Source: a virus. Taken from it: a stretch of DNA of 23,720 nucleotides. Every line of letters begins with the position of its first letter. Within the stretch, counting starts at the first letter, position 1. The stretch covers positions 1 through 23,720 of IMG/VR virus record IMGVR_UViG_3300028115_000116, one strand, 5' to 3'. The notes beneath the pieces were generated by a model. It worked only from the letters and a program-made list of their open reading frames with translations. It was not told the DNA's origin and searched no databases. The position numbers and the translations under genes are program-made. Below are positions 97 to 21,900 of the stretch, piece by piece.

Positions 97-107
97 CTAC
101 CCCTTCT

Positions 108-147: not shown

Positions 148-169
148 AACACACTAAGGAGAATTTTAC

Positions 170-1578: not shown

Positions 1579-1582
1579 TTTT

Positions 1583-2218: not shown

Positions 2219-2225
2219 TGACTCT

Positions 2226-4342: not shown

Positions 4343-4351
4343 ATCCAACGA

Positions 4352-4391
4352 AAAAATAATTCTTGACTTTCAACTAACCCGAATATATAAT
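4352..4391 (+). promoter_or_regulatory. Sigma70-like promoter C driving the head genes
   Basis: The element AAAAATAATTC (4352-4362) leads into -35 TTGACT (4363-4368), a 17-nt spacer and a perfect -10 TATAAT (4386-4391). It matches promoters A and B across the upstream element and -35 region. The ATG at 4400 is eight bases after the -10 box, so this promoter too should give a leaderless or nearly leaderless mRNA. Confidence 0.92.
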
Positions 4392-4399
4392 TTATAAAA

Positions 4400-4783: not shown

Positions 4784-5966
4784 CTTCTGGAAACAGGAAA
4801 AATTAAACCCAGCACAAGAAGAGATTGTAGTTAGTCTCGAAGGCTCTGGTCCTATTGCTTCCAGAGAAATTCCTACTAATTATACCTCATACTATGAGTA
4901 TTTGGAAGTTGTAAATCGTGGCGTCAACATGATCGTTGATGACACGGCAGAAATTCCTCTTCGAATAGGTGAACCGATTCAAGGAATGAATTCGGTTGTA
5001 AAAGGTATTAGAAGATCTAGACTTAACTTACTGTTAAATGTAGAGCCTAATCCTTTTCAAGATATTTCCTCTTTTAAGCGAAACCTCATAATCGATTATA
5101 TACTCGATGGGAATATCTTCATCTATTTCGATGGGGCTGGTTTATATCATTTACCCGCATCTTATACGGACATAGATCCAGATAAGACTACTTACATTAA
5201 TAAGTATACTTTTCAACGTAATATAGATTATAGTACAAACGAAATCATTCACATTAAAGAAAACTCTTTTCATAGCATATATAGAGGTACTAGTCGTTTA
5301 AGAGCTGCTCAGCGTGTAATGTCACAGCTTACTCGTATGCGCCAATTTCAAGACAATTTTTTCAAGAATGGAGCTGTCCCCGGCCTTATAATTAAATCAC
5401 CTTCTGTAATTAGTGAAAAAAATAAAGAAAGAATGATTCAATCTTGGATGACTCGTTATCGCCCTGACGGAGGAGGAAGAAGACCTCTCATTTTAGATGG
5501 CGGAATGGATCTAGATGCTATCTCAAATGTTAATTTTCGAGAACTTGATTTCGAAGCCTCAATAGAGGGAGCGGAAAAAGAAATATTAAAAGTTTTAGGA
5601 GTACCTCCCCTTTTACTAGATTCGGGAAACAATGCAAATATCCGACCAAACCATAGACTTTATTATTTAGAAACAATATTGCCTATAATTGAAAAAATTA
5701 ATAAAGCTATAGAAAGATTCTTTGGCTTTCACATTACCCCAGACATTAGTAATATCCCTGCACTTCAGCCAGAATTAAGAGACAGCGCAGCTTATTACTC
5801 TACTCTTGTTAATACGGGAATTATTACCCCTAATGAAGCTCGTGAAGCACTAAACTACGATGAGCAGTTTGGCGCAAGCGAACTAAGAGTACCTGCTAAT
5901 ATAGCTGGATCTGCTGCAAACCCTTCAGAAGGTGGAAGACCGTCTGAAGATAATATAGAGGAATAA
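4770..5966 (+). CDS. HK97-family portal protein
   Basis: This 398-residue protein would form the dodecameric ring at one capsid vertex through which DNA passes and to which the neck attaches. Family features include RGVNMIVDDTAEIPL (about residues 50-64), YILDGNIFIYF (110-120), SIYRGTSRLRAA (169-180), FFKNGAVPGLII (197-208), VLGVPPLLLDSGNNAN (275-290) and the late GIITPNEAREALNYDE segment (350-365). The length is typical. The ATG at 4770 overlaps the HNH gene by 14 bases. The C-terminal 25 residues are Pro/Ser/Glu-rich and likely disordered. The gene precedes the protease/capsid gene, as in other HK97-type head modules. Confidence 0.95.
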   Translation: MAWYDFWKQEKLNPAQEEIVVSLEGSGPIASREIPTNYTSYYEYLEVVNRGVNMIVDDTAEIPLRIGEPIQGMNSVVKGIRRSRLNLLLNVEPNPFQDISSFKRNLIIDYILDGNIFIYFDGAGLYHLPASYTDIDPDKTTYINKYTFQRNIDYSTNEIIHIKENSFHSIYRGTSRLRAAQRVMSQLTRMRQFQDNFFKNGAVPGLIIKSPSVISEKNKERMIQSWMTRYRPDGGGRRPLILDGGMDLDAISNVNFRELDFEASIEGAEKEILKVLGVPPLLLDSGNNANIRPNHRLYYLETILPIIEKINKAIERFFGFHITPDISNIPALQPELRDSAAYYSTLVNTGIITPNEAREALNYDEQFGASELRVPANIAGSAANPSEGGRPSEDNIEE

Positions 5967-5968
5967 AA

Positions 5969-6286
5969 ATGACTAGAACCGAAATAGCGCTTACTGTTAT
6001 TAAATATTTTCAACAACTAGGAAGAGTGCCCGCACGATCAGAATATATTGCACTAGGAACTAACGCCCCGATTCACTATAGAATTGTTATACGTAATTTT
6101 GGTTCCTGGCATCAAGCTATAAAAAGAATACAATTAAAACATCCCGAAGAATGGGAAAATATTTTTAATACTTCTAGTGTTTATACATTGGAACAAAATC
6201 CCAAGCCAGTTCTTGAACCGGCTTCGGATGAAGATCTCAGCCCTTTAGAGAAGCTGAGAGTGTCGACAGGAGAATCAAGTGAATAA
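5969..6286 (+). CDS. Small protein with homing-endonuclease-associated repeat-like (HNHR) domain
   Basis: In this 105-residue protein, residues 4-53 match the pattern of the homing endonuclease associated repeat: a helix, LGRVPARSEY (17-26), a short loop and FGSWHQAIKRI (44-54). Such repeats are small helical DNA-binding units normally appended to HNH or other nucleases; no nuclease motif is present here. The C-terminal 40 residues are acidic and probably disordered. The ATG at 5969 has AGAGGA (5957-5962) as its SD and begins three bases after the portal gene. Its end overlaps the protease-capsid gene by eight bases. It could be a partner of the HNH protein at 4400, a remnant of a homing gene or a head accessory protein. 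Confidence 0.75.
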   Translation: MTRTEIALTVIKYFQQLGRVPARSEYIALGTNAPIHYRIVIRNFGSWHQAIKRIQLKHPEEWENIFNTSSVYTLEQNPKPVLEPASDEDLSPLEKLRVSTGESSE

Positions 6287-8369
6287 AATTTTTCACATTG
6301 GCTCCACATTTAAGGCGTTTGAAGAAGGGGATGATCTTCATATCGCTGGTATGGCCAGTACGAATAGTACTGACCGTGTTGGAGACATAATTGAGACTGA
6401 AGCCTGGACAAAGGGCGGACTTCAAAATTATTTAAACAATCCCGTAATTCTTTTTAATCACGATTACAATCAGCCGATTGGCCGAGCAGTTCAGCTTGGT
6501 ACTAACGATAATGGTCTGCAGTTAAAAGCAAAAATTGCTAAATCTGCTGGTCACGTAGGTGAATTAATTAAAGAAGGTGTCCTTGGAGCTTTTTCAGTCG
6601 GGTTTCGAGTCAAGGATGCGGAGTATATGACCGAAACCGATGGATATAAGATAAAGGACGCAGAATTACTGGAAGTTTCAGTAGTAACGGTTCCTGCTAA
6701 CCAAGCTGCAACCTTTTCTCTTGCTAAATCTTTTAACTCAGAGTCTGAGTATGAAGAATTCAAGAAATCTTTCAAAACTATAGATTCCGTGGAAGAAAAG
6801 CATGTTATTAGTGTTCAGGAGACTGAAGACAAAGTAACTGTTGAGTTTGAAAAACATTCTGAAACCGAATCAATGCCTAAAGACTTATCACAAGTCGAAG
6901 TACAGGAGAAAACTATGAGTGATATCGATATCGATGCGATTGTGGCTGCTGCTGTCGAAAAGACCGCAACTGCAATGGCGATGAAAGACGCTGAGCGCAA
7001 GGCAGAAGAGCAAGCTAAAATGGAAGCAGAACAAAAAGCTGCTGCCGAAGCTGAAGCTCAAAAAGCCGCGCAAGAAGCCCAAATTGTAACCGCTGTTTCT
7101 AGTGGTGCAGAAAAATTAATGGCTGACGTTGAAGCTAAAATGGCTGCAAAAGATGCTGACTATGAAAAAATTATTGGCGAATTGAAGAATGAACTGATTG
7201 AAAAATCAGACGAAATTTCTAAAATTCGTGATAGCAAGCGTGTATTTGCTGATCGTGGCGAAGCAAAGTCTTTTGCTGAAGCCTATGAGAAAGACATTTG
7301 CGATGCGCACCTTCTTGGCGTAATTACTAAGAAGGGTTGGGATAATAAGCTTACTAAGCAGTTATTCGAAAAAGCCAGTCGTAATACAAATGCAGGCCTA
7401 ACTGTTCCAGATACGTCCTCTGATGCTTTACAAGCTTTTGAAACTACTGTTTCTACTGCAATGGAGAGAGATGTAGAATTAGAATTGGTTTTGGATCCTC
7501 TTTTCCGAAAAATCCAAATGAATTCTGCTTCAATGGTAATGCCTACCATGCCTGATGCTGGCTATGCAGAGTGGGCAGCTAATGATACCTCTGGCGGTGC
7601 TTCTGGTGCCCCTTTTAAAGGTAATTTAGAAGGTCGTGACGATACTGTAGGTTCACCTTTCCCCGGCATGAGCATGGGTCGTAAAGTATTGACTGTAGAG
7701 CGTTTAATCTCTCGTTCCTATATTGCTAATGAAAGTGAAGAAGACGCAATTATTCCTGTTCTTCCTTTTATTCGTGAGTCAATGGTACGCTCACACGCAC
7801 GTGCAATTGAGCATTCATTACTCTTAGGCGGTTCAGCCGGTAATGATTTGATCAGCACACCTTATAATGGTTTGGTTGCTCGTACAAATGCTAATGCTGT
7901 TTTAGACAACGGTTCATCTCCTGGCGTAGGTGGCGTAGCTACTGCTTCCAAATTACTTGATCTTCGTCAAGCAATGGGTAAGTATGGCCGTCGTCCTGGC
8001 GATGTAGTTTATATCATCGCACTTACTGCATACTACGATATGCTTGATGATCCTGACTTCCAAAATATCAATGAAGTTGGTGATCAGCGTGCTACCAAGA
8101 TTACCGGAGAAATCGGAAACGTCTACGGTTCACCCGTAATCGTTTGTGACGAGTTTACAGGTGGACGTACTGATGGTAAGCATTGGGCCGTAGCCGTAAA
8201 CGCTCGTAATTTTGTAGTTCCTGTATTGCGTGGAGCTACTGTTGAGACCGATTACGAAGTTGCCAATCAACGTCGTGTATTGGTTGCTACTCAACGTCGT
8301 GGCTTTGACTGCATCTTTGCAGACGATGCTACTAACGGTGATTATCAAACTGCTGTACATACTTGGTAA
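6279..8369 (+). CDS. Fused prohead protease - scaffold (delta) - major capsid protein
   Basis: This 696-residue ORF joins three head functions. Residues 1-150 are an S78/U35-type prohead protease with the expected motifs FNHD (His61), GAFSVGF (Ser106) and LLEVSVVTVPANQA (Glu132 onward). A linker (150-212) is followed by an Ala/Glu/Lys-rich coiled coil (about 215-315) typical of the HK97 delta scaffold. The rest (about 325-696) is an HK97-fold major capsid domain. The GTG start at 6279 has AGGAG (6268-6272) at six-nt spacing and overlaps the previous gene. An internal SD and ATG at M213 (6915) would give a separate 484-residue scaffold-capsid protein. Arginine codons in the capsid part are mostly CGT, unlike the AGA-rich downstream genes, as expected for strong expression. 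Confidence 0.93.
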   Translation: MNKIFHIGSTFKAFEEGDDLHIAGMASTNSTDRVGDIIETEAWTKGGLQNYLNNPVILFNHDYNQPIGRAVQLGTNDNGLQLKAKIAKSAGHVGELIKEGVLGAFSVGFRVKDAEYMTETDGYKIKDAELLEVSVVTVPANQAATFSLAKSFNSESEYEEFKKSFKTIDSVEEKHVISVQETEDKVTVEFEKHSETESMPKDLSQVEVQEKTMSDIDIDAIVAAAVEKTATAMAMKDAERKAEEQAKMEAEQKAAAEAEAQKAAQEAQIVTAVSSGAEKLMADVEAKMAAKDADYEKIIGELKNELIEKSDEISKIRDSKRVFADRGEAKSFAEAYEKDICDAHLLGVITKKGWDNKLTKQLFEKASRNTNAGLTVPDTSSDALQAFETTVSTAMERDVELELVLDPLFRKIQMNSASMVMPTMPDAGYAEWAANDTSGGASGAPFKGNLEGRDDTVGSPFPGMSMGRKVLTVERLISRSYIANESEEDAIIPVLPFIRESMVRSHARAIEHSLLLGGSAGNDLISTPYNGLVARTNANAVLDNGSSPGVGGVATASKLLDLRQAMGKYGRRPGDVVYIIALTAYYDMLDDPDFQNINEVGDQRATKITGEIGNVYGSPVIVCDEFTGGRTDGKHWAVAVNARNFVVPVLRGATVETDYEVANQRRVLVATQRRGFDCIFADDATNGDYQTAVHTW
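6904..6917 (+). promoter_or_regulatory. Internal ribosome binding site and start for separate capsid protein
   Basis: AGGAG (6904-6908) stands six bases before an in-frame ATG (6915-6917) that is codon 213 of the protease-capsid ORF. The start falls exactly between the protease linker and the coiled-coil scaffold (MSDIDIDAIVAAAVEKT). Translation from here would make a 484-residue scaffold-capsid precursor without protease, giving a way to produce many capsid subunits for each protease. Confidence 0.7.
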
Positions 8370-8378
8370 CAAGTATGT
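8357..8378 (+). other. GNRA-type tetraloop hairpin spanning the capsid stop codon
   Basis: CATACTTG (8358-8365) and CAAGTATG (8370-8377) pair perfectly around loop GTAA (8366-8369), with a ninth A-T pair outside. The TAA stop codon (8367-8369) lies in the loop. A role in protecting the capsid message 3' end or in slowing readthrough is inferred. Confidence 0.75.
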
Positions 8379-8385
8379 TAGGGAT

Positions 8386-8412
8386 GGGAGTCTTCGGACT
8401 CCCAAGCCTTTT
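8386..8412 (+). terminator. UUCG-tetraloop hairpin, probable (partial) terminator after capsid gene
   Basis: GGGAGTC (8386-8392) pairs with GACTCCC (8397-8403) across a TTCG loop closed by C-G, a very stable RNA tetraloop. Five T residues (8408-8412) follow after a short AAGC/C gap, so termination may be only partial. Downstream head-tail genes have no obvious promoter of their own, so readthrough is expected. Confidence 0.75.
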
Positions 8413-8422
8413 TGGAAAATAA

Positions 8423-9034
8423 ATGGCCGATTTAATTACATTAGATGACTATAAATTGTTGGAGGGTATAAACTCTACTCAGTTTGACGAAAAGTTTGAG
8501 AAGCTAATTACGAGTGTAAGTCAGCTTGTCCGTACTTATTGTAATTCTGAGTTTGATACTTATGCAACTTCACCAGGATATACGGAGTTATTTGATATTC
8601 AATGGGACACTTATACTGTTCAGCTTAAATATAGCCCTGTTATTAGTATAACAAATGTATATGAAAGATTGGGACAAGCTTCTGATTATGTTGAACTTTT
8701 TTCAAATGGAGCCGGCCCTTCACCAGAATATTCATGGTACTTAGATTCTGTTTCCGATTCTATTTTCAGAACAGAAGAAAGTGGTAAGTATAGAAATTGG
8801 CCTAAAGGAGTAGGTTCTGTAAAAGTTACTTATTTAGCAGGGTATGTCTCTGTACCCGTTGATTTAGAACTTGCGGTTGCTGATATTATAACTTACTACC
8901 ATAAAGACGAGCAGAAAGAGAGACAAAGCATTGGTTCAGCAAGTAGAGAGGGAGCAGGAAGCTCTGCGATTCGTAATGATCCTGGATTTCCAGACCATAT
9001 ACGAAGAGTTCTAGATATGTATAGAGTATCATGA
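8423..9034 (+). CDS. Head-tail connector (gp6-like adaptor)
   Basis: This 203-residue protein begins ITLDDYKLLEGINSTQFDEKFEKLITSVSQLVRTYCN, the helical opening usual for the HK97 gp6 / SPP1 gp15 adaptor family that binds under the portal. A beta-rich insert (about residues 55-135) is followed by VKVTYLAGYVSVPVDLELAVADIITYYHK, the characteristic YxAGYxxVPxDL motif and following helix. It would form the ring linking portal to neck. The ATG at 8423 has only a weak upstream purine stretch as SD. The gene ends in an ATGA overlap with the next gene. Confidence 0.88.
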   Translation: MADLITLDDYKLLEGINSTQFDEKFEKLITSVSQLVRTYCNSEFDTYATSPGYTELFDIQWDTYTVQLKYSPVISITNVYERLGQASDYVELFSNGAGPSPEYSWYLDSVSDSIFRTEESGKYRNWPKGVGSVKVTYLAGYVSVPVDLELAVADIITYYHKDEQKERQSIGSASREGAGSSAIRNDPGFPDHIRRVLDMYRVS

Positions 9035-10431
9035 GCAAAAGATTTTTAGATAAGCTATTAAAAGAAACTATAAAAGAGCTAAAAAACCCAGCTAATGACC
9101 CGAAGAAAGGGTCGGGATTTAGAGAATTAGAATCAGACGTAAAAGTTCATAGAATAAGTGCCTCTGTAAATGGAGTAAAAAACCAGGTTTATATTCAGCT
9201 TCAAGAGCAAGGTATACCTGCAAAACAAATCAATCACCCTCAGATGAGAAATGTGATTGATACTTATGTTCCAAACTTTGTAGAAGCAATTTATAACTCG
9301 GCAAAGAAAAACTTTGATAAGAATCCTTCTTCTAGTAATACAAGAGTAAAAGGTAATAAAAGCGCTTGGAGCGTAACTATATTGGAAGGAGGTTATGGCT
9401 ATAGTCTAGCAAGGAGAGAGGTTGGGCATTTATCTGTTTTTGAAACTATTAGAACCCTGTATTCTTCTCAAAAAAGTACATTAGTAAACAATATAAATAA
9501 AGTTCTGAGAGAAATAGCCACTTTATCCTCGGGTGAGTATAGTATAAATGGTAGAAACTTTTTAGATTTTGGTCATCGCGCCGGTTCAGCGGTTGTAGAA
9601 CAGCAAAGCCAAAGAGCTAGAGATACTTTCCAATCTACAATTAGATACAGAAATGAAACTAGCGAAGATAAAATAACCGACAAAGATTTAAAAAATCTGG
9701 GTTTAAAAGTATTTTTTAGAAAGAAAGGAACTTTAGAAAAGGATACTGTAGAAATCGGTATAGAAGCGTCATCAATAAATAGAGGTAAAAAATCAGAGTT
9801 GGAATTAAAAGCTAATCTAATTGAACAATTAGAAAAGGCTATAGTAAAATTAAATAAAGCAAAAAGCTTTGCTGATAGAAAAGGCTCTGACACCAGAATA
9901 GAAATAGAAGCTAAAAAAGTTGTAAAAAGATTTGACCAGGGTATAAAAAGAGGTAAAAATGTAAAAGTAGTCAGTAGAAACTTTAAGCCTAAGCTATCTA
10001 ACAGTACGTCGGTTAAAACAACTAAAAGAAAAGCTACAAAAGGCACCATAACTAAAGCGAAACTATCTTCTTTAGGAGTAAAAAAGGCAGCGTTAAAAAA
10101 AGGTTCTTCTAGTAGTAATATTTCTGTAATAGCTTTAATTAACCAAAAATTACCACAAACAGTTAAAAAAAATATGGGAGCGCCCGGATTAGAAAATAGG
10201 TCAGGGAAATTTGCGGCAAGCGTTAGAGCTACAGATATTACTACTACAGCAAAAGGATTTCCCAGTATCGGGTATTCTTATGACAAAAACCCTTATCAAA
10301 TATTTGAACAAGGTGCAGGTAAGTTTCCCTGGGCTAATGCTGATAGAGACCCACGAAAGTTGATAGACACTTCTATTCGAGAGATAGCTGCGCAACTTTT
10401 AACAGGACGTTTCTACACTAGGAGAGTATAG
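9031..10431 (+). CDS. Large basic neck/head-closure protein (putative)
   Basis: This 466-residue protein lies between the adaptor and the tail terminator, where head-closure or gp10-like tail-completion proteins sit. The N-terminal part (1-200) is mixed alpha/beta and not recognised. The middle (about 255-365) is unusually Lys-rich, including KTTKRKATKGTITKAK near residue 328. The C-terminal 100 residues contain NRSGKFAASVRATDI, then NPYQIFEQGAGKFPWANADRDPRKLIDTSIREIAAQL, which resembles gp10-type virion-morphogenesis proteins (an SG-x-F/L-x-x-S motif followed by a C-terminal helix). It is much longer than usual neck proteins, so the name rests mainly on position. The ATG overlaps the upstream stop (ATGA) and its TAG overlaps the next GTG. 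Confidence 0.7.
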   Translation: MSKRFLDKLLKETIKELKNPANDPKKGSGFRELESDVKVHRISASVNGVKNQVYIQLQEQGIPAKQINHPQMRNVIDTYVPNFVEAIYNSAKKNFDKNPSSSNTRVKGNKSAWSVTILEGGYGYSLARREVGHLSVFETIRTLYSSQKSTLVNNINKVLREIATLSSGEYSINGRNFLDFGHRAGSAVVEQQSQRARDTFQSTIRYRNETSEDKITDKDLKNLGLKVFFRKKGTLEKDTVEIGIEASSINRGKKSELELKANLIEQLEKAIVKLNKAKSFADRKGSDTRIEIEAKKVVKRFDQGIKRGKNVKVVSRNFKPKLSNSTSVKTTKRKATKGTITKAKLSSLGVKKAALKKGSSSSNISVIALINQKLPQTVKKNMGAPGLENRSGKFAASVRATDITTTAKGFPSIGYSYDKNPYQIFEQGAGKFPWANADRDPRKLIDTSIREIAAQLLTGRFYTRRV

Positions 10432-10883
10432 TGGCTACGAGAGATTATAGTTCTAGGAGAATGGCCATTGTAAAAGCTATAGAGGATAAGTTAAAGTTAA
10501 TTAACGGAAACTTTCCTTTTAGGACAAATTTATATAATAATGTTCTCCCTCGATTAAAGTTTTGGGACGAAGTAGAAGATTTTCCTGCAGTTCATGTATC
10601 TGCGGGATCGGAAACAAGACAGTATCAGGGTGGAGGATATAAAGACAGATTTCTAACTGTTACTCTTCGAGTATATGTTCAAGAAGAAAATGCTATTTTT
10701 GCTCTTGAAAAATTATTTGAAGATATAGAGACAGTTCTAGAAGATAACGCAGATCTTCCTTATATAGATCAAGATGGTAATACTCAACGTGTTCAGCAGA
10801 TAACAATCTTGAGCTTGGATACGGATGAAGGAGCCCTCGAACCTTTAGCGGTTGGGGAAATTATCTGCGAAGTTCGATACTAA
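10431..10883 (+). CDS. Tail terminator protein (putative)
   Basis: This 150-residue protein would cap the tail tube and join it to the neck, the role of lambda gpU. It has an N-terminal helix (RMAIVKAIEDKLKLING), then strands around FPAVHVSAGSETRQYQGGGYKDRFLTVTLRVYVQEEN, a helix (FALEKLFEDIETVLEDN) and a final strand pair ending GEIICEVRY. This alpha/beta order fits tail terminators, and it lies between the neck gene and the tail tube gene. The start is a GTG overlapping the upstream TAG (TAGTG, 10429-10433) without a separate SD, so coupling is likely. Confidence 0.82.
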   Translation: MATRDYSSRRMAIVKAIEDKLKLINGNFPFRTNLYNNVLPRLKFWDEVEDFPAVHVSAGSETRQYQGGGYKDRFLTVTLRVYVQEENAIFALEKLFEDIETVLEDNADLPYIDQDGNTQRVQQITILSLDTDEGALEPLAVGEIICEVRY

Positions 10884-10926
10884 CCTTATTAGGTTGAGAT
10901 GAAAAGGCAACTTTTCTTCGGAGAAA
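10882..10926 (+). promoter_or_regulatory. Structured leader with alternative hairpins before the tail tube gene
   Basis: AACCT/AGGTT (10882-10895) form a small hairpin at the upstream stop codon. GAAAAG (10901-10906) then pairs with CTTTTC (10911-10916) around GCAA, while the same CTTTTC can instead pair with GAGAAA (10921-10926) around TTCG. The second hairpin would bury the SD GGAG (10920-10923) of the tail tube gene; the first leaves it free. The two are mutually exclusive, so a regulatory or stabilising role is possible. Confidence 0.55.
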
Positions 10927-10930
10927 AAAG

Positions 10931-12064
10931 ATGGCATTACAATTTACAAGAAATGCAAACGTATATGTGCAGCTGGTAGATGGAGCCGGCTCCCATGTAC
11001 AAGCTTGGAAACTTTCAGTCTTAGACGGGTTTTCATTCACACAATCAATTAACTCATCAGAAATTACCATTAATGAAGCAGGTTCAATCTCTCGTAGAGC
11101 AAGATTGCTTTTTAACGATAGTTTAGCACCTGTAGAATGGTCAATGAGTACTTACGCCCGTCCTATTACGGACACTAATATTACGCATTGTCCTGAAGAA
11201 CCTCTTTGGGCTATGATGTTAGGCGCGGACGGTTATGCTACAAATCAATATACTAGTTCAGTATTGGCAGGAGTATCACCTTCTCCCGATACTGAAAATA
11301 TAAATACTCCTGCTAATGGAACAAATACTTTTGACTTTTCAGCTTCAAATGTATCTTCATTTTCTGATCGTTGGAATATTTATTTCGGGTTTGAGGATAC
11401 AGGAAATATTCAATTTTATAAACTAGACTCTGCTGTAGTAAATTCAGTAACTATGGATTTTGATATAGATGGTATTGCGACTCTTTCTTGGAGTGGCTTT
11501 GCAAAATCTTTATCTGATGAAGGTATTTCCGTTCCTACCGATTTGGCCTCCCCAATTACCACAGGATTAACGGATACTACTAACTTTATTCGTAATCGTA
11601 TTTCTACAGTTTCTTTATCAAGAACAGATGTTTCTCCTGACGATGTGTATAATATTGTGTTGACGGGAGGCTCTTTTACTATTGAAAATAATGTCTCTTA
11701 CTTAACTCCAGAAGAGCTAGGGATAGTAAATGCACCTCTAGCAAATATTACTGGTGCTCGCTCAATTTCCGGTTCTATGACTTGTTATCTTGACAATGAT
11801 CAAGCTAACAGTAAATCAGGAGAACTTTTTGCTGATTTGGTGGCTGATGTAGACACAGTACGAAATGTTTTTACTCTTTCATTAAATGTAGGAGGAGAAA
11901 CTGCTTCTACTCCTAGGGTGGCATTTGAGCTTCCAACAGCACATTTAGAAGTGCCAACAATTAACGTAGAAGATCTATTGACTCTTGAAATTAACTTCCA
12001 TGGTCAAGTGAGTGGAGGTAATGTTGATCTTACTGACGAAGCAACAATCGTCTATAAATCGTAG
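10931..12064 (+). CDS. Major tail tube protein
   Basis: This 377-residue protein would polymerise into rings forming the tail tube. It starts MALQFTRNANVYVQLVDGAGSHVQAWKLSVLDGFSFTQSINSSEITINEAG and continues as a beta-rich, Ser/Thr-rich protein with repeated strand motifs such as NSVTMDFDIDGIATLSWSGFAKSL and GARSISGSMTCYLDN, which suit tail tube proteins. The size is at the large end, consistent with an extra surface domain in the central or C-terminal part. The ATG at 10931 has GGAG (10920-10923) at seven-nt spacing and a structured leader. It follows the tail terminator gene, as in lambda and HK97. A promoter/terminator pair lies after its stop. The protein at 12183 appears to be a diverged copy. 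Confidence 0.88.
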   Translation: MALQFTRNANVYVQLVDGAGSHVQAWKLSVLDGFSFTQSINSSEITINEAGSISRRARLLFNDSLAPVEWSMSTYARPITDTNITHCPEEPLWAMMLGADGYATNQYTSSVLAGVSPSPDTENINTPANGTNTFDFSASNVSSFSDRWNIYFGFEDTGNIQFYKLDSAVVNSVTMDFDIDGIATLSWSGFAKSLSDEGISVPTDLASPITTGLTDTTNFIRNRISTVSLSRTDVSPDDVYNIVLTGGSFTIENNVSYLTPEELGIVNAPLANITGARSISGSMTCYLDNDQANSKSGELFADLVADVDTVRNVFTLSLNVGGETASTPRVAFELPTAHLEVPTINVEDLLTLEINFHGQVSGGNVDLTDEATIVYKS

Positions 12065-12083
12065 TAACAAGAAAAAATAAATC

Positions 12084-12112
12084 TTGACAATTAGATAGTT
12101 GTTTTGTATAAT
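12084..12112 (+). promoter_or_regulatory. Consensus sigma70-like promoter D
   Basis: A perfect -35 TTGACA (12084-12089), 17-nt spacer and perfect -10 TATAAT (12107-12112) follow an A-rich element (AAAAAATAAATC) related to that of promoters A to C. The predicted start near 12118-12120 is only a few bases before a terminator-like hairpin at 12125-12147. Confidence 0.88.
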
Positions 12113-12115
12113 TAC

Positions 12116-12152
12116 TGAAGATTAGGGGAGAAATTTCTCCCCTTTTTCTTCA
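12116..12152 (+). terminator. Rho-independent terminator immediately downstream of promoter D
   Basis: The 18-base perfect palindrome GGGGAGAAATTTCTCCCC (12125-12142) is followed by TTTTT (12143-12147). TGAAGA (12116-12121) and TCTTCA (12147-12152) extend the symmetry. It can end transcripts from the head/tail tube unit, but it also lies inside any transcript begun at promoter D, so it could act as an attenuator or make a roughly 30-nt RNA. Confidence 0.85.
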
Positions 12153-12182
12153 TTTAGAAGGAGAAAATATAGGAGTATACCC

Positions 12183-13133
12183 TTGAGTTTCAATGTTTTA
12201 AGAGACGGAAGAGTTTGGATGGAATATCTTAACACTTTTTACCTTCTTCATACAAACAAAGAAGTTTCATTCTCCCAAACATTTCGCCAGCAGGACATAA
12301 CAGTAAGAAATCTGCATAATAACTCAGATTTTTTTGAAAATTCCTCCATTGTAGAGGCAAATCCTGCTGATTTTAGTTTTTCTATATACTTAATAGAAAA
12401 TGATAGTACGCCTCTACACCAACACAAGCCCTTAGATTTATTAACAGAGTATTCGACTGATAACAATTTAAACACGTTTAATCTATATTTTGTATATTCG
12501 GATTATAGTCCTGAAATTTACTATAAAATAGAGAAATGCGTATTTACTGGCGGATCTTTCAATATACCTAGAAATGGTATTATGACTGTCGGATTATCAG
12601 GACAAGGTACAAAACTCACTAGGAATACCGGTTCGGTTCCAGGATTAGTACAGTCACCTAACTATACTAGTTCTCCGAATTATGCTATTTCGAAGGAGTT
12701 CGATATTTGGGCGACAGGTACAGACGTCGCACAATTTAAACTGGATAATATCTTAGGAGCGTCTTTAGAGCTGCAAAATAATATAAGTTGGACAGCAAAC
12801 AAAACTTTGCAGAAGTCTTTACAAGTTACTAATGCGAGTAATACTATATACCCAGAAAATTTTACTTTGGCTGATAGATCTCTCGCAGGAAGTATACGAC
12901 AATATGTTAGCGACTCTCAATCACTATCTAAGAACAATATTCAGACTTGGGCTGAGAATACCTCAGTTATTATAAAAGCGGGTTTGGGCGGCTCTTTCGG
13001 CTATCAACTAGAAGTTGATTTGGACAACAGAGCTTCTTTTACGAATAGAGTGGCTTTTGGAGATTTATTCACTCAAAGCTATGATTTTCGTTGCATGTCA
13101 AATCCCGCAATTAGTTCAATTTTTACATATTAG
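12183..13133 (+). CDS. Tail tube-like protein, diverged paralog of the tube protein
   Basis: This 316-residue protein resembles the preceding tail tube protein along its length. Its start MSFNVLRDGRVWMEYL lines up with MALQFTRNANVYVQLV; VSFSQTFRQQDITVRNLHN matches FSFTQSINSSEITINEAG; GGSFNIPRNGIMTVGLSGQGTKL matches SVTMDFDIDGIATLSWSGFAKSL; and ADRSLAGSIRQYVSD matches GARSISGSMTCYLDN. It is probably a second tube or tube-baseplate transition protein. The start is a TTG at 12183, chosen because AGGAG (12171-12175) is seven bases upstream and because the N-terminus then aligns with the paralog. It lies just after promoter D and its terminator and 8 bases before the chaperone genes. Confidence 0.75.
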   Translation: MSFNVLRDGRVWMEYLNTFYLLHTNKEVSFSQTFRQQDITVRNLHNNSDFFENSSIVEANPADFSFSIYLIENDSTPLHQHKPLDLLTEYSTDNNLNTFNLYFVYSDYSPEIYYKIEKCVFTGGSFNIPRNGIMTVGLSGQGTKLTRNTGSVPGLVQSPNYTSSPNYAISKEFDIWATGTDVAQFKLDNILGASLELQNNISWTANKTLQKSLQVTNASNTIYPENFTLADRSLAGSIRQYVSDSQSLSKNNIQTWAENTSVIIKAGLGGSFGYQLEVDLDNRASFTNRVAFGDLFTQSYDFRCMSNPAISSIFTY

Positions 13134-13141
13134 GAGTATAG

Positions 13142-13567
13142 ATGAAATTAAAAGATTTAATGGTGGACACTAAAGCCGCTTGGCTAGATTTTCCCGGTGC
13201 CCCAGGGTTTCAAGTAAAGGTTGCAAATCTTTCTAGGAAAGAATTAGTAGCTCTTAGAAAGCGTTGCATTTCTCAAAAATTTGATAGAAAGACTCGTCAG
13301 ATGATAGAAGATTTAGATGAGGAAAAGTTTATAACTGAATTTACAAAAGCTACCGTAAAAGGCTGGTCAGGATTAAAGTTAAAATACTTAGAAGATTTAA
13401 TTTTAGTTGATTTAAAAGATCAAGATTTAGAATTAGAATTAGAATATGACGAAGAACAAGCTCAAGTACTTGTTCAAAACTCTACAGAATTTGACAATTG
13501 GATAAACGAGGTGGTTTTTGACCTTGCCAACTTTCGTAGAGCAGGAGAGGGAGATTCTTTGGGCTAG
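13142..13567 (+). CDS. Tail assembly chaperone, G-like
   Basis: This 141-residue protein lies between tube genes and the tape measure, the position of lambda gpG. It is mostly helical and acidic (KYLEDLILVDLKDQDLELELEYDEEQAQ at about 80-107), with an N-terminal patch DFPGAPGFQVKVANLSRKELVALRKR seen in tail chaperones. These proteins bind the tape measure during tail assembly and are absent from the finished virion. The ATG at 13142 has GGAG (13132-13135). The next ORF overlaps its 3' end in the +1 (equivalently -2) frame, consistent with a programmed frameshift making a longer G-T protein of about 263 residues. Confidence 0.83.
   Translation: MKLKDLMVDTKAAWLDFPGAPGFQVKVANLSRKELVALRKRCISQKFDRKTRQMIEDLDEEKFITEFTKATVKGWSGLKLKYLEDLILVDLKDQDLELELEYDEEQAQVLVQNSTEFDNWINEVVFDLANFRRAGEGDSLG
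13506..13567 (+). other. Probable programmed frameshift window between chaperone ORFs
   Basis: The downstream frame is open only from 13506 (after a TAA at 13503-13505), and the upstream frame stops at 13565-13567, so any shift must occur here. GTTTTTG (13514-13520) lets a Phe tRNA on TTT (13517-13519) re-pair perfectly two bases back (13515-13517), giving a -2 shift into the downstream frame. GAGGTGG (13508-13514), an SD-like sequence, lies directly upstream. Confidence 0.6.
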
Positions 13568-13931
13568 ACTAGAGGATTGGCAACAACATAATGCTGTGGG
13601 TATGACTAAGGATAAATACTTAGAATTGCAGCAGCAAATGGGGAGAGAGCCAGATCCAGAAAGATGTCCACCAGGAATCGAAGATTTTCCTGAAGTAGTA
13701 ATTGATGCCTTATCGATTTTCAATTCGTTAGGGGATAGAGTATATCCTGAGATAGGGTATACTGGAAAAGATTACACTAATTTAAATTTTTTAATTAATG
13801 TTTACAAAATAGAAGATAAAGAATTACTTTACGATATTCTATTAAGACTCGATGCTCACGTTATTAAAAAGTCCCAAGAAGCTATAAAACGTGAATACGA
13901 TAAATTAAAGAGAAATAAACGTGGCCGATAG
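13506..13931 (+). CDS. Tail assembly chaperone, T-like C-terminal ORF
   Basis: This downstream chaperone frame contributes about 140 residues, including WARLEDWQQHNAVGMTKDKYLELQQQMGREPDPERCPPGIEDFPEVVIDALSIFNSLGDR and ending in a basic helix (KKSQEAIKREYDKLKRNK). Acidic/Pro motifs followed by a helical C-terminus fit T-type domains of tail chaperones. No ATG or GTG start precedes the conserved part; TTG codons at 13518 and 13524 are possible starts near GAGGTGG, but expression as a frameshifted extension of the upstream ORF is more likely. It overlaps the tape measure gene by 11 bases. Confidence 0.75.
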   Translation, partial: TRWFLTLPTFVEQEREILWARLEDWQQHNAVGMTKDKYLELQQQMGREPDPERCPPGIEDFPEVVIDALSIFNSLGDRVYPEIGYTGKDYTNLNFLINVYKIEDKELLYDILLRLDAHVIKKSQEAIKREYDKLKRNKRGR

Positions 13932-16900
13932 CAGTGTAACTCTAGAAGTAATACTAGAAGGTAAAAACTTAAAAATAGTCCAAAAAGATGTGGACAAGGT
14001 TACTTCGTCTGTTAATAGAGCATCTAAATCCACTGAAAATTTATCTACTAAAAGTAATAACTACAATAAAGGTCAGAAAGGGGTTGCCCAAGCAACTTCC
14101 AACAGTACAAAAGCATTTTCTAAAATGCGTAGCGAGATCGGAGGAGGCTCTTCTGGTCTTGTCGCTGCTTACGCTACGCTCGCGGCAAACTTATTCGCTG
14201 CTACTGCCGCTTTTAATGCTCTTCGAGGAGCTTCAAAAGTAGAAGAGCTCTCAAAAAGCTTAGATGTTATAGGCACAAAAGCCGGTAGAAATCTCGGTAT
14301 TTTAGCAGAAAGTTTAAGAGACGTTACTAATGCCGCAATTTCCACTGAGCAAGCATTAAGAACCGCAGCAATTGCTACAAGTGCAGGATTTTCGGATTCG
14401 CAACTTTTAAGTCTTACTAAAGTTGCAAAAGGAGCTTCAATCGCTCTAGGAAGGGACTTAGGTGACTCTTTAGATCGATTGGTCAGAGGTACTGCAAAAC
14501 TTGAACCAGAAATTCTCGATGAATTAGGTATTTTTGTTCGTCTTGACGACGCTACACGAGAATATGCAAGAGCTTTAGGTAAGACTTCTGACGAGCTTAC
14601 TGACTTTGAAAGAAGACAGGCTTTTCTTAATTCCGCAATTGAAAAAGGTGAAAAGAGATTTGGAGAGTTAGCTGAAGCCCTAGATACAAACCCTTATGAT
14701 AAACTGTCAGCAGCTTTTAGAGACTTAGCTAAGAATTTGGTAACCGCTATAAATGGTACTATTACTCCTGTGATTGGTTATCTATCTCAAAATTTAACGG
14801 CTCTTGCAGGGGTTTCTCTTCTGGCTGGCAGCGGGGTTGCAAAAAATGTTGTTAGTGCTTTTGTACAGGGTGCAGAAGGTGCAGCAACTTTTGCTGGAAA
14901 GCTTTCCGACCAGAGAAAAGAACTTCTTCAAAATTTAGAAACTACTGATAAATTGCCAGCGGTTTACAAAAATGTAAGTTCAAAAATTAAAGAAGGAACC
15001 GCTTCCTTAGATGATTACAAAACGGCTTTTCGTAGCTTAGAAAAATCTACAAAAACACATCAGGGGCAGCTTGATGCAATGAAGGATGGAACTAAAAAGT
15101 TCAGCTTCACTGTAAAAGAAAAAGAAGAAAGATTACTAAATGTAAACACTACTTTAAAGAACTTAAGGACACAGTTGGTAGTTACTACCGCCGCTCAGGC
15201 TAATTTTACAAAGGCACAAGCTTTAGGGGCTATACAGGCAGGTTCTTATATTGCCGGAATAAAGCTTGCCTACGCGGCTGTAAAAGAATACGCAAGTGGA
15301 CTTTGGGCAGCTGTCGCTGGAGCCGGTGCTCTTGCTACGGCTAACGCAGCCTTAAAAATAACCTTTTTTGCTATAGGAATAGCAGTTCAGACTGCTTTTG
15401 CAGCAGTTTTGAGTGCAATAGCTATAATAGGAATATTAATAGCTCTTGGCCCTCAGCTGAAAGATTGGATTGAGAGTACGTTTTTCCCAGAAAAAATAAT
15501 TCAAAGAAGAAGAAAAGAAATAGTAGACTCTTTAAATATAATTCAAAAGACTTCAAGAGACTTTACAAAAAACTTCTTTAATGACCAACAGACAGCAGCA
15601 GATGCCGCAAAAAAAGCTTCTGGCCTAATACAGGAAAGTATTTCAGCAGTTGAAAAAGCCTCAAAACTAGATGCGGAAGCTCAAAAGAAAAGAGAAGAAG
15701 AATTATTTACTTTAAAAGAGAAGCAATTAGAACAACAAGAAGAACTAAAAAAATTCAAGAATCCAAATGCAATTGCCAATGCTAAAGGCGAGCTTGCTAA
15801 AACAAAAAAAGCTATAGAAGAACTTCAGAATACAAACATGAACGCATTGATCACAAATTCAAATGCTATTGAAGTTGCAAATAAAGCTGTAGAAAATTTT
15901 TATTCAGTTTTAGACTCTCGTGACCAGTTCAGTCTTTTGCCTCAAAGCTCGATAGAGCAAATAGATGAGGCGATCGCACTTCTTGAAACTGGGGGCCCGG
16001 ATGCTGTTGAAAATTTTATAAATACTTTAACTAAGATAAAAGAACCTTTTGATAAAATTACTGCAGGTTTTGAATCTGTAACCGGAAAAATAAATGATTT
16101 TAAAGATGCTCAAGCCACCCTTTTAAAGAGAACAGCTACTCCTTATGACGATATTTTAGAAGCAGCTAAAGGAGTGCAGGCTGAGATAAAAGCAATAACT
16201 GATAACACTAGTGAGCTCGCAGAAGTTACTGGAGGCACAGTTATTGCTAGGGATATTTTAGAAAAAATAACAGACGCTGGATTCGAGTCCCAAGAGCAGC
16301 TTGATACTTATATTACTACCCTTGAAGAAGGTATAAAGAAATATATAGAATTTCCAGGACTGATTAAGCAACAAGAAACTGCCTTAAAAAGATTAAATAA
16401 CTTTGCTAAAGAAGATGTAAATGTTCTTCAACAAAGTTTAGAGAAGCGAACGGAACTAAATAAGGTGAGGGAAAACGCTCTTATCAATGAAGAAAATTTA
16501 ATAAAAGCTAATCAGAAAGAGGGGCAGGAAGGACAAGCCCAGGCAGCGCGGTTACTAGAAATAGAAAGAGAAAAAGCTGTTATAGCCGAAGAAGAACTTA
16601 AATCAAAATATGATGAGCAAACACTTGCAGTTGCTCGGGTAGAAGAACAACAAAAACTTTTGGATTTAAGTAAGAAAGTTACAGGAGAAACCATAGCCCA
16701 AGCAAAAGCGCAGATGGAAATAAGAAATATTGCTCGAGAAATAGAAAGACTTGAAGCTGGAGGTGGAGAGTATTCCGCTTCTGCAAAACTTGCTATTTTT
16801 TCTACTGAAAGGAAAGCTCGTGAAGACGTTCTTGCCCTAGAATATTCTATGAAAGTAGCAGGTATTGAGCTAGAGTACGATTTGATGGAAGCAAAATTCG

Positions 16901-18240
16901 AACTTCTAAAAAAGCAAGCGGAAGTAGAAGGGGTAAAATTAACTAATACCGAAAAGATTGAAAAATTAATGAAGGACGGACGAGCAGCCGCTTTAGCTAA
17001 TGCAGAAACTCAAAATGAGCTTTCATTAAAGAGGTTAGAGCTTGAAGAGGCACAACTACAGAAACAAGTTCGTTCCGAAAGAAGCGCTTTTACAGAAAAT
17101 TTGGGGGGTATAGGTTCAGGATTTGCCACTACCACTTCTATGACGTCAGATATTGAAAATTCTATAAAAACTGGTCAAGGTAATATAACCAAAATAAATG
17201 AAGGTAAAGGAACGGAACCAGAAAAGGAAGCAGCTATTGCTAGAGAAAGACTGGCTATGGCTGCTTCTGCTGCGGGGCCTTTTGTAGAACAGTTAAAAGC
17301 TCTTGGCCCTGAAGGAGCACTTGTTGCCGCTGTCACAGAAGGTTCTATGGTTATGGCCGATGCTTTTCTTCGTATTGGCGAAGCTGGCGATAATATGGGC
17401 GATAAACTATCTGCCATTGGCAATGTTATAGGAGCTATTGGAGGAATTGCCCAAGCTGCAGGACAAGCAAGAGTAGCGGCCATTGATAAAGAAATCGCGG
17501 CAGAGAAGAAACGTGATGGTAAGTCAAAAGAATCTTTAGCAAAACTTGCTCAGTTGGAAAAGAAAAAAGAAGGTATAGAAAGAAAGAATTTTGAGAGAAA
17601 TAAGAAAATTCAAATGGCTCAAATTGTAATCAATACCGCTGCTGCATATATGAAAACTTTAGGAGAAACAGGATTTTTCGGAATTCCTTTAGGTGCAATT
17701 ATCTTAGGGTTAGGAGCCGCTCAATTAGCTCTTGTTGCCGGACAGTCTTATGAAGGAGGAGGGTCTTCCGTAGGGGCGGGAAGTGCGCCAAGTCCTACAG
17801 TAGAATTAGGAAAAAGAAAATCATCTGTAGATCTTGCTAGCTCACAAAGCGCTTCTGGAGAACTTGCGTATTTTAGAGGGGAGCGAGGTATTGGAGGCCC
17901 AGAAAACTTTGTACCTACAGGTGCTATGATGGGTGCAAAGTATAGAAACGAAGGCGGCCCTACTGCGGGGTATATGGTTGGAGAGCAAGGACCAGAGTTA
18001 TTTGTACCTTCTGTTCCTGGAACGATCGTTCCAAACGATGAAATGACCGCAACTTCTCAAAATGTAAATATTTCAATAAACGCAATAGATAGTAGAGGAA
18101 TGGAGCAAGTATTAGTTGAGCAAAGAGGAAACATAATCGGAATGATTAGAAGTGCAGCAAATAATGTAGGAGAAGATTTTTATGAAACTATAGATACTTC
18201 TGTTTATACTGCTGAAGCTGCAGGAGCAACGAGGTACTAA
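13921..18240 (+). CDS. Tape measure protein
   Basis: This 1439-residue protein sets tail length and is carried inside the tube. Order of parts: a basic N-terminal helix region; a hydrophobic segment (about 78-100) and the conserved helical domain ending DDATREYARALGKTSDELTDFERRQAFLNSAIEKG; a long hydrophobic stretch with probable membrane-spanning helices (about 441-516); long coiled coils rich in Glu, Lys and Gln (about 570-1060); further hydrophobic segments (about 1235-1275); and the typical C-terminus VGEQGPELFVPSVPGTIVPN (1353-1372). At about 0.15 nm per residue this predicts a tail near 200 nm, an inference from known phages. The GTG at 13921 has only a weak SD and overlaps the chaperone ORF. 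Its TAA overlaps the next ATG (TAATG). Confidence 0.95.
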   Translation: MADSSVTLEVILEGKNLKIVQKDVDKVTSSVNRASKSTENLSTKSNNYNKGQKGVAQATSNSTKAFSKMRSEIGGGSSGLVAAYATLAANLFAATAAFNALRGASKVEELSKSLDVIGTKAGRNLGILAESLRDVTNAAISTEQALRTAAIATSAGFSDSQLLSLTKVAKGASIALGRDLGDSLDRLVRGTAKLEPEILDELGIFVRLDDATREYARALGKTSDELTDFERRQAFLNSAIEKGEKRFGELAEALDTNPYDKLSAAFRDLAKNLVTAINGTITPVIGYLSQNLTALAGVSLLAGSGVAKNVVSAFVQGAEGAATFAGKLSDQRKELLQNLETTDKLPAVYKNVSSKIKEGTASLDDYKTAFRSLEKSTKTHQGQLDAMKDGTKKFSFTVKEKEERLLNVNTTLKNLRTQLVVTTAAQANFTKAQALGAIQAGSYIAGIKLAYAAVKEYASGLWAAVAGAGALATANAALKITFFAIGIAVQTAFAAVLSAIAIIGILIALGPQLKDWIESTFFPEKIIQRRRKEIVDSLNIIQKTSRDFTKNFFNDQQTAADAAKKASGLIQESISAVEKASKLDAEAQKKREEELFTLKEKQLEQQEELKKFKNPNAIANAKGELAKTKKAIEELQNTNMNALITNSNAIEVANKAVENFYSVLDSRDQFSLLPQSSIEQIDEAIALLETGGPDAVENFINTLTKIKEPFDKITAGFESVTGKINDFKDAQATLLKRTATPYDDILEAAKGVQAEIKAITDNTSELAEVTGGTVIARDILEKITDAGFESQEQLDTYITTLEEGIKKYIEFPGLIKQQETALKRLNNFAKEDVNVLQQSLEKRTELNKVRENALINEENLIKANQKEGQEGQAQAARLLEIEREKAVIAEEELKSKYDEQTLAVARVEEQQKLLDLSKKVTGETIAQAKAQMEIRNIAREIERLEAGGGEYSASAKLAIFSTERKAREDVLALEYSMKVAGIELEYDLMEAKFELLKKQAEVEGVKLTNTEKIEKLMKDGRAAALANAETQNELSLKRLELEEAQLQKQVRSERSAFTENLGGIGSGFATTTSMTSDIENSIKTGQGNITKINEGKGTEPEKEAAIARERLAMAASAAGPFVEQLKALGPEGALVAAVTEGSMVMADAFLRIGEAGDNMGDKLSAIGNVIGAIGGIAQAAGQARVAAIDKEIAAEKKRDGKSKESLAKLAQLEKKKEGIERKNFERNKKIQMAQIVINTAAAYMKTLGETGFFGIPLGAIILGLGAAQLALVAGQSYEGGGSSVGAGSAPSPTVELGKRKSSVDLASSQSASGELAYFRGERGIGGPENFVPTGAMMGAKYRNEGGPTAGYMVGEQGPELFVPSVPGTIVPNDEMTATSQNVNISINAIDSRGMEQVLVEQRGNIIGMIRSAANNVGEDFYETIDTSVYTAEAAGATRY

Positions 18241-18992
18241 TGGCACAGTTTACTAATTTTCTTAATATATTACCATCCCCAACAATTAAAATAGGGGGTG
18301 CGGGACAAGATGAATCAGACGGAGGTACACAAGTTGGGCCTGGTTACGCTTCTGTAAAATTAACTTCTGACCAAAAAATTTTAAAAACTCGTACAAATTC
18401 AGGAAGATATACTGCTAGAAGCGCAGCGTACCAAAATTGGCAAATTAATATTACATATAATCCAATGACCCGCTCAGAGTTCTCCCCTATTTATACTTTT
18501 CTATTAGAAAAGCAGGGAGGTTTAAAACCTTTTTATATTTCTTTGCCTCAATATGAAAATCCTCAAGACGCTACTTTTGCGTCTAATGGATTGGTAAATA
18601 GTCTGCTTACCACTAGTTTAACCAATGCGGGAGAAACTAAAGTATTACTACGAAATGGGGGATATAATCATACTACTGGAGGAAAGCCTTCTCCTGGAGA
18701 TATTTTTAATATATCAGATCCTAGTGATTCTAATCATAAAAAAGTTTATATGGTTACACGAGTAGAAGACAGCGTTTACTACAATGAGTCTGCGGTAGCA
18801 ATAGATGAAATTGTTATACATGTTACTCCTCCTTTTGCAAAAAATATCTCTTCCGGAAGCAGTTTTGTTTTTGGCCAGGTGTTCTCCAGCGTAGGTCCAT
18901 TATTTAAAGTAGTAGCAAAAGATCAACAAGAATACAGCTTAGGCACCGATAATTTATATCAATTTAGTCTATCTTTAGAGGAAGTTCAGTGA
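18240..18992 (+). CDS. Minor tail protein, distal-tail/gpM-like
   Basis: This 250-residue beta-rich protein lies directly after the tape measure, where lambda gpM and Dit-type tail proteins are encoded. The stretch RYTARSAAYQNWQINITYNPMTRSEFSPIYTFLLEKQGGLKPFYISLPQYENP (about 57-110) resembles the tube-like N-terminal domain of such proteins, and the last 50 residues (GQVFSSVGPLFKVVAKDQQEYSLGTDNLYQFSLSLEEV) form another strand-rich unit. It probably forms the ring between the tube and the tip protein. The ATG overlaps the tape measure stop (TAATG) and the gene ends in GTGA shared with the next start. Confidence 0.75.
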   Translation: MAQFTNFLNILPSPTIKIGGAGQDESDGGTQVGPGYASVKLTSDQKILKTRTNSGRYTARSAAYQNWQINITYNPMTRSEFSPIYTFLLEKQGGLKPFYISLPQYENPQDATFASNGLVNSLLTTSLTNAGETKVLLRNGGYNHTTGGKPSPGDIFNISDPSDSNHKKVYMVTRVEDSVYYNESAVAIDEIVIHVTPPFAKNISSGSSFVFGQVFSSVGPLFKVVAKDQQEYSLGTDNLYQFSLSLEEVQ

Positions 18993-21900
18993 CAATTCGT
19001 TCTATTTCTACCGACCTAAAAAATTCCTTACTTCCCGATAATCCCAGTTATCAGGAAGGATTTTCTTACGCCCACTTAATAAAGTTTGAAAAAGCTATAA
19101 AAACGGGTACAGGAAAAACAAAGAAGACCCCTCTTTCTTACGCATATATCACAGATGCTTCTAGAAATATCAGATTTAATGACGGTAGTACTGATATAGA
19201 TGGAACTCCTAACGGACTTCAGACTTACATTGCAAATAGAGTTGTATCTGTTGGTTCTGTACAAGAAACAACAGAGGCTAGAGCCTCGAACTTTAATATT
19301 GAAATCGATACTACAGCCCTAGGAACTTCTTTATCTAATCAAACTTTTATATACTCCACATCCACTATTATCGGAGAAATAGACTTTGTTGATGCAGGTT
19401 TTGCAGAAGGAGATAAACTTAAGATTACGGCATCAAATAGTCTTAATACTGGACTAACCTTTCGTATTAATAGTTTTACAAACAATAATAAAACTATTAA
19501 TTTTAGTACTGAAGATACGGTAGTTACTGGTACCGGCACAGCAGAAACTGTAGAATTTGCTTCCGAAGAAGTTATTGGTCTTTTAAATAAAAAAGAAGAC
19601 TCGGCAAGTTATGCGGGATATATAAATAGAGAGATATTTATATATAAAGCTCATATTGATACTGATACGGGTAGTATTATCGGAGATCCTTATCTTCTTT
19701 TTAAAGGAATAATATCTAATGCAAAATTAACTGAAGACCCTTCATCATCATCAAAAATTTCTTGGGGAGTATCTAGTCATTGGGGAGATTTTGTACGTGT
19801 TAACGGTAGAATAACTTCAGACGATTTTCACAGAGGTCTAGATGGTAATGGTCAGTCAGACCCCTATGCTTTAAAAAGACCCGAATATGCAGATGATTTA
19901 GGTTTTATGCACTCTGAACAAGCCATAAATATTATTGGTATTTATCAGGTAAGTGAGACTAGGTATAAACTAAAATCTAAAAGAAAATGGTATGGGACAA
20001 AAAAATATAAACAAGTAGAATATCAAGTACAGGTCGATAGAGAAGCAGATCTTCGTTTTAATCTAGATGCAAAATATATACCCGTAGTTTATGGAGTTCA
20101 AAAGATAGATGCTATCCCCTTCTTTGTAGATACGGATAAGGATAGTGCTGACATTATTTATGTCGCATACGCCCTTTGCGAAGGAGAGATTGGAGGATTA
20201 TACGATATATATTTTGACGACTCCTCTAGCATATGCTTAGATGAGCAAGACAATGATACTAGGGCTCAAGGCAGCGAGGGAGTAGATGTTTATTGCCAAG
20301 GAAGAATGGATAGAGGAGATGTTTTAGGGGGGTACTCAGCAGCTTATGATAGTCTTGTAACTAGGTTGAGCAGGCTATCTCAGGCTTATGCCTACACTAC
20401 TGAAAATGGTACTGGGACTTACTCTCAGGAAGTAGCACAACAAGAAACCGACTTACTATTAGCAAATCCTTTACTTCAAGCAGCTACTCAATCTATTCTA
20501 CCCTCGAGCCAAACTTTTGGCTTGCAACACGAAGAAGCTACTTTATTTGAAAAACCTTTAGATGCTAGAATGGTTTTTCACTCTGGAAAACCTAACCAAA
20601 AAACCGACGGTATGCTAGCTTCTGTAGCTAATCAATCACGTTTTAAAATTCAAACAGATTATTTTTCTTCTACCGCTGACTACTGGGGAGCGAACCATAG
20701 AGTTTTAGATACTGCTTATGTTGCAACTAAATTTACTATTTCTGATGGAGAAACTACTATACCCGAACTTGACTTTATTGTTCGAGGTAAGTTAATTGAT
20801 TGCTATAATTATGATTTTTCCTACGTATCAATTCCCGCTGCAGGAGAAAGTATATCTAATTTTAATCTTGGGGATTCTGTAAATATTTATGATATTTCTG
20901 ACCCTACAGGCACTACTTCTTTAGGAAGTAATATTATTGCAGATATATTTACTCTACCAGAAGAAAACGAACCCAGGATAAGATTAAAAACAGACCCTGA
21001 TCTATCTATCACAGCTTTTTATATAAAAAATTCTAATGGAGATACTTGGAGGGTAATAACTTATGATCACGTAGAACAGTCAGGAAATGTTGCAGAGACT
21101 TTAACTGAACAAGTTCAAAGCATATCTACCGGAACAACGAGTGGGGTATCTGTAAATATTAATGCAGGTACTGTAGCTAATATTTTGTCTGAGCCCGCGA
21201 TACAAGCAGCTGTAGCTATAGCTAGTCAATTTGTTGGTGTTGAGAGAACTTATGCACAAGAACCAAAAGATGCTCTAGTTCCTTCCAGAACAATCATATC
21301 TTCAGACTCTACTAATTCAGGACAAACTTTAGATAATGTAGGCGTCGATACTGATATTACCAGATCCGAGACTGTATTTGAAGAAGTACAAGTTAAAAAT
21401 GCTATAAAATTAGATACTGTCGGCAAGGCAGACGATTTTTACAATGGTTTCGAAATTCAAGTTACCCGAAGAAATGATGATGATACTTTAACTACGGAAA
21501 CAAAAACAATAATTGATTTCGATGGAGCAACTCAAGTAGCAATTATTGATGGAGAATTTAACTTATTTTTACCTAGAGACGGATCTATCTCTGGAACTGT
21601 AGCAGATACTTATAAAATTTTAACTAAAAAAGACAGAAGAGTATCTATAAACCCTGCTATGCAGCTTTTAGACTATATTACTAATAATAGGTACGGTAAA
21701 GATCTATCTATAGAAGAAGATATAAATTTAGACGCTTTTAGAAGAGCTGCATTAGCTTGTGATACCCGATCTGATGTTACTGTAGTAACTTCTTCCACCC
21801 CCACTATAGGAGCAGATTACGAATATGTAACAGGTGGTGTAAGATTATTCAGAGCTACTTGCTTATCTCATGAAACAGTCAATTCAAAAATAGAAACTAC

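Follow-up and report, generated by a model that had tools for sequence, protein, structure and literature searches.

Promoter and hairpin at a tail tube gene boundary

Why would a phage place a perfect promoter so that it fires straight into what looks like a transcription terminator, in the midst of its tail genes? The question is raised by a short joint between two genes in the window, that is, the whole stretch of viral DNA analyzed here (23,720 nucleotides; IMG/VR virus record IMGVR_UViG_3300028115_000116). The first-pass annotation had described a TTGACA-17-TATAAT promoter followed, about 12 nt later, by an 18-base palindrome and a T5 tract, the pair being located between two paralogous tail tube genes. 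The coordinates proved to be exact, and the flanking genes match phrog_3575 and phrog_3889; their products, the major tail tube and base-plate tube proteins, are indeed paralogues (BLASTP E 5e-10). The joint and its neighbours, all on the plus strand, comprise the following features:

10931-12064 (+): major tail (tube) protein gene, 5′ of the joint (phrog_3575, E 2.9e-52)
12072-12083 (+): UP-element-like, A-rich box AAAAAATAAATC touching the −35 element (consensus of the family, AAAAATARTTC)
12084-12112 (+): sigma-70 type promoter, with TTGACA at 12084-12089, a 17-nt spacer and TATAAT at 12107-12112
12116-12152 (+): outer arms TGAAGA (12116-12121) and TCTTCA (12147-12152), which lengthen the hairpin (fold; weak covariation)
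12119 (+): predicted transcription start, 7 nt past the −10 element, placed by this position rule only
12124-12147 (+): intrinsic-terminator-like hairpin AGGGGAGA AATT TCTCCCCT with T5 tract (sequence, fold, d-score, covariation)
12171-12175 (+): ribosome-binding site AGGAG of the downstream gene (sequence)
12183-13133 (+): base plate tail tube protein gene with a TTG start, first gene 3′ of the joint (phrog_3889, E 2.1e-10)

The palindrome GGGGAGAAATTTCTCCCC is perfect over its 18 bases (12125-12142), begins 12 nt beyond TATAAT and is followed by five T residues at 12143-12147. The stem (12124-12143) has eight pairs and encloses a 4-nt loop, where an intrinsic terminator calls for at least five GC-rich pairs and a short loop, and the U tract, TTTTTCTT, lies directly behind it. 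The terminator d-score of 41, computed on the identical hairpin of a relative (locus L226), is strong. For the RNA spanning 12113-12160, the predicted fold has an energy of −20.6 kcal/mol (z = −4.5), a value equalled by none of 200 shuffles. In a scan of window positions 1-20000, the 12/12 promoter match is unique to 12084-12112, and 600 first-order Markov copies of the window yield a chance expectation of 0.008 perfect promoters per window; none of these copies contained a perfect promoter with a G4..C4 hairpin behind it.

The window encodes terminase, followed by head, connector, and tail genes. Its terminase is ~50% identical to those of Vibrio T5-like phages and its tube protein ~32% identical to T5-like tail tube proteins; judging from these proteins, the window belongs to an uncultured marine phage related to T5, of which it represents the head and tail module. 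The phage DNA collection contained no nucleotide match to it. Contigs carrying relatives of the tube protein were binned with gammaproteobacterial and betaproteobacterial MAGs of marine origin, a weak pointer to the host. The tube gene lies 5′ of the joint, and the genes for the base-plate tube, chaperones, and tape measure lie 3′ of it. With copy numbers taken by analogy from known tails, the joint is thus placed between high-copy and low-copy products, which is the location expected of a dosage terminator. The window also contains two ordinary terminators, one behind the major capsid gene (8385-8411), with a UUCG loop and without an adjoining promoter, and one at 72-98 ahead of a promoter at 119, i.e., in the order terminator, then promoter.

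Conservation of the joint and alternation of its order

The conservation in relatives proposed as a check in the first-pass annotation was borne out on a broad sample. Boundaries were gathered from viral contigs by tube protein or profile, independently of the motif (20 loci by tube protein, then 80 + 80 + 79 by profiles, and six MAG contigs), and removal of duplicates left 173 distinct readable boundaries behind homologous tube genes. A hairpin is present at 171 of the 173, and 146 also carry the family promoter. Their order, however, alternates: the promoter precedes the hairpin at 78 boundaries and a terminator precedes the promoter at 68, whereas 25 have the hairpin only and two have neither element. 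The latter two (L365 and L435) represent tandem duplicate tube genes, with neither hairpin nor promoter between the copies. Among promoter-first relatives, the promoter keeps its position even where tube protein identity is as low as ~37%. The next gene may encode the base-plate tube or the tail chaperone, and each is preceded by both orders, indicating that the joint belongs to the boundary rather than to one gene. On the tube-protein tree, the promoter-first state requires 17 changes, at least eight of which are forced by supported branches. The gap from the −10 element to the hairpin is 9-23 nt in 78 of 78 promoter-first boundaries, and the RNA predicted for these loci is 32-44 nt long. In the six true T5-like phages examined, which are cultivated isolates, the genes at the tube boundary overlap or are separated by less than 20 nt, so that, unlike in the window phage, there is no room for a promoter plus hairpin.

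Recombination can contribute to the changes of order. In two comparisons (the window with L005, and L010 with L011), the break point coincides with the promoter box: the sequences are 98-100% identical upstream of it, and exactly at the −35 element identity falls to 40-74%; accordingly, modules may be exchanged at this box. A simple linker explanation would fit these break points, which help to explain the exchange of order, but leaves unexplained why the hairpin type tracks the order (see below). We also considered that the joint might be the remnant of a moron (promoter-gene-terminator) from which the gene was lost. This was rejected because the 9-23 nt gap, held in all 78 cases, is too short for a gene; furthermore, no relative with an intervening gene was seen.

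Hairpin structure, loop type, and terminator scores

The three inner stem positions behind the G run are paired in 86 of 93 cells, compared to 42.9 after shuffling (0 of 5000 as good), with A-T, T-A, C-G, and G-C pairs all being used in relatives. Since these pairs covary, the hairpin is, on comparative grounds, under structural selection. The same does not extend to the outer arms. The first-pass annotation had noted that TGAAGA and TCTTCA could pair the 5′ end of the transcript, and both arms are present in the window, but across relatives native arms perform little better than swapped ones (longest helix 4.43 versus 4.37, with 360 of 1000 swaps as good; for duplex energy, the native arms were matched by 7 of 200 swaps). 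Outer-arm covariation is hence not claimed, and given the weak advantage over swapped arms, this pairing may be ordinary A-tract/U-tract complementarity.

The type of hairpin depends on the order. UNCG (UUCG-type) loops are found in 3 of 78 hairpins behind the promoter but in 60 of 68 in front of it (Fisher 4e-28), and the difference holds on phylogenetically independent pairs (median p 0.031). Hairpins ahead of the promoter have a short stem and a long U tract, whereas those behind it have a longer stem and a U tract that is poorer on average, though not significantly so on phylogenetically independent pairs. The median terminator score is 39 for terminator-first, 24 for promoter-first, and 4 for hairpin-only boundaries, on a scale which, like that of the promoter scores, is calibrated on E. 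coli and may not suit the host of the phage. At hairpin-only boundaries, readthrough is the sole local supply to the next gene, and the ranking of scores is that expected if a hairpin that polymerase has to pass on its way to the next gene needs to be leaky; leakiness is not evident in the window, as its own terminator, with a d-score of 41, scores as strong. Neither the lower terminator scores of promoter-first boundaries (raw p 4e-8) nor a stronger promoter compensating for the hairpin (marginal, raw p 0.03) is significant on independent pairs, and both differences were discarded. Of the order-linked differences, only loop type survives phylogenetic correction. In one hairpin-only group (L279, L284, L293, L296, L298, L274, and L275), exactly 17 nt separate the end of the hairpin from the next start codon, and the U tract is poor; this distance and composition suggest a possible role of the hairpin in mRNA processing or stability in place of termination.

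Possible functions of the joint

Terminators between genes for high- and low-copy products are well known, and leaky dosage terminators include the rplL-rpoB attenuator of E. coli and T-phi of phage T7, located behind capsid gene 10. Like them, the phage joint has a terminator that follows a gene with a high-copy product and precedes genes with low-copy products; unlike them, it has a strong promoter no more than a dozen bases 5′ of the terminator, and the order of the two elements swaps among relatives. The interpretation that we favour, and to which we give about an even chance, is that the operon joint behind the tube gene is a fixed step-down (attenuator) between high-copy and few-copy tail proteins. 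The hairpin would act as an intrinsic terminator that stops the greater part of the highly abundant tube mRNA, and the promoter would load fresh RNA polymerase for the low-copy distal tail genes, a division of labour that would serve tail stoichiometry. In the window, transcription is predicted to initiate at ~12119 and to terminate at 12143-12150. In the promoter-first form, shared by the window phage with about half of its relatives, the promoter lies just 5′ of the hairpin, so that its own transcripts would also meet the terminator, within ~40 nt; most of them would end as a 30-40 nt RNA by-product and a minority would read through, the putative net effect being that the tail operon 3′ of the joint is refilled at a reduced rate. 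A bolder version holds that the promoter-hairpin pair works as a dedicated gate for regulation, or as the gene of a tiny RNA, in a large group of uncultured phages. A built-in early stop would decouple initiation from elongation, with a phage factor or the history of the polymerase (fresh or arriving from upstream) deciding the outcome, and the pair would have been exchanged repeatedly in evolution, along with a change of hairpin type, for an ordinary terminator-then-promoter joint. We regard this as unlikely.

One competing explanation is a plain operon boundary, at which the hairpin ends the upstream mRNA, the promoter feeds the next genes, and the order is of no consequence since just-started polymerases pass the hairpin freely, e.g., before NusA joins. 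Such a boundary would readily accommodate the alternation of order among relatives that share neighbour genes. Nevertheless, an indifferent order predicts neither that loop type should switch with it (3/78 versus 60/68 UNCG loops, surviving on independent pairs) nor that the spacing should be held at 9-23 nt in every promoter-first boundary, and we therefore consider this explanation improbable. A second competing explanation is a small-RNA gene, whose hairpin product of 30-40 nt would be abundant and act in its own right by pairing to a target, as a protein decoy, or as a primer. The perfect promoter with its A-rich upstream box, the length of 32-44 nt predicted for the RNA of promoter-first loci, and the strong terminator of the window are in keeping with such a gene. 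However, neither a conserved seed nor a known family, the marks of a trans-acting small RNA, was found: there is free, compensated variation in the loop, inner stem, and leader, and an Rfam search at a permissive threshold gave only sub-threshold matches, with no family reaching its own threshold. Moreover, 68 relatives have the terminator-then-promoter arrangement instead, where an RNA of this kind cannot form, making this explanation quite unlikely. Thus, among the roles listed in the first-pass annotation (attenuator, small RNA, or promoter opposing readthrough), the first survives in the form of an attenuator-like joint of alternating order, whereas the small RNA is left without evidence favouring it.

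Two further possibilities concern what happens at the hairpin. Q and AlpA act at sites where a promoter is followed by an intrinsic terminator, as described in PMC9371919 and PMC6606751, and the anatomy of lambda pR′-tR′ and P. aeruginosa PalpB-tB, with the terminator close behind the promoter, is also that of the promoter-first joint. A phage protein loaded at the promoter might then carry polymerase past the terminator late in infection. Yet the joint differs from both systems in lying mid-operon, and the promoter-first arrangement is missing from more than half of the relatives; −10-like pause hexamers (score of at least 4) occur in the initially transcribed region behind 38% of the joint promoters, no more often than behind other family promoters (50%); and among seven contigs of relatives (the longest 115 kb, possibly incomplete), none encodes a Phage_antitermQ or Antiterm domain (PF06530 and PF03589, the two profiles covered). 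An antitermination gate thus seems very unlikely. Finally, the hairpin could be a 5′-terminal stem-loop that stabilizes the distal tail mRNA and not a terminator at all. This would suit the clade of the window, where the predicted start coincides with the base of the outer stem, and it would suit some relatives that have almost no U tract (L009, CCCCCAAACC). The possibility is rendered highly improbable by the 71 of 78 promoter-first hairpins that exceed the terminator threshold, by a second clade in which the hairpin begins further into the RNA, and by outer-arm pairing that hardly rises above that of swapped arms.

In a limited search of open-licence papers, we found no other phage group in which a strong promoter directly 5′ of a dosage terminator is conserved and yet has been swapped with it again and again. 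Among the ~170 natural variants of this single operon joint, promoter and terminator change places and the hairpin type switches in step, with neighbour genes staying constant. The variants provide a testable system for a terminator located a few dozen bases past a promoter, as met by fresh polymerases versus those arriving from upstream. They also bear on how phages set the ratios of tail proteins by transcription.

A phage-wide promoter family

The A-rich box of the joint promoter, which the first-pass annotation did not mention, is common to three further promoters of the window (110, 2181, and 4354), and the combination of AAAAATARTTC with TTGACA-17-TATAAT is repeated many times in related contigs of up to 115 kb, where a reversed control pattern has no matches. 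The box is invariant or nearly so in promoter-first and terminator-first joints as well as in 241 other distinct family promoters. In the T5-like phage AKFV33, promoters contain AAAAATT at −43, TTGCTw, and TATAATA, and T5-type promoters generally combine an AT-rich −43 region with strong hexamers for the host polymerase (PMC3326045). The window phage, related to T5 by its terminase and tail proteins, has promoters of the same design, being of sigma-70 type with an A-rich box just 5′ of the −35 element and many copies per genome, but with TTGACA as the −35 element and AAAAATARTTC as the box. The joint promoter is a member of a phage-wide family resembling T5-type host-polymerase promoters, its activity being predicted. 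Among 312 family promoters in the loci covered by this count, which a motif search has enriched, 58 have a hairpin at the transcript start, and 55 of the 58 are located behind a tube gene.

Other members of the family show features of their own. An ATG frame of at least 50 codons begins within 75 nt of 249 family promoters; in 57 of these, the ATG lies 6-8 nt past the −10 element (exactly 6 nt in 36), almost at the predicted transcription start, as also seen in the window at 2190-2226 and 4363-4400. This proximity suggests that leaderless mRNAs are widespread in these phages. A second promoter-into-terminator pair is present in two relatives (L061, minus strand, 7220; L146, minus strand, 3032), where the spacer GATCCTCGATCCGTG is conserved and the hairpins differ, each being followed by T9-T10; the gene 3′ of this pair may encode a nuclease-like protein.
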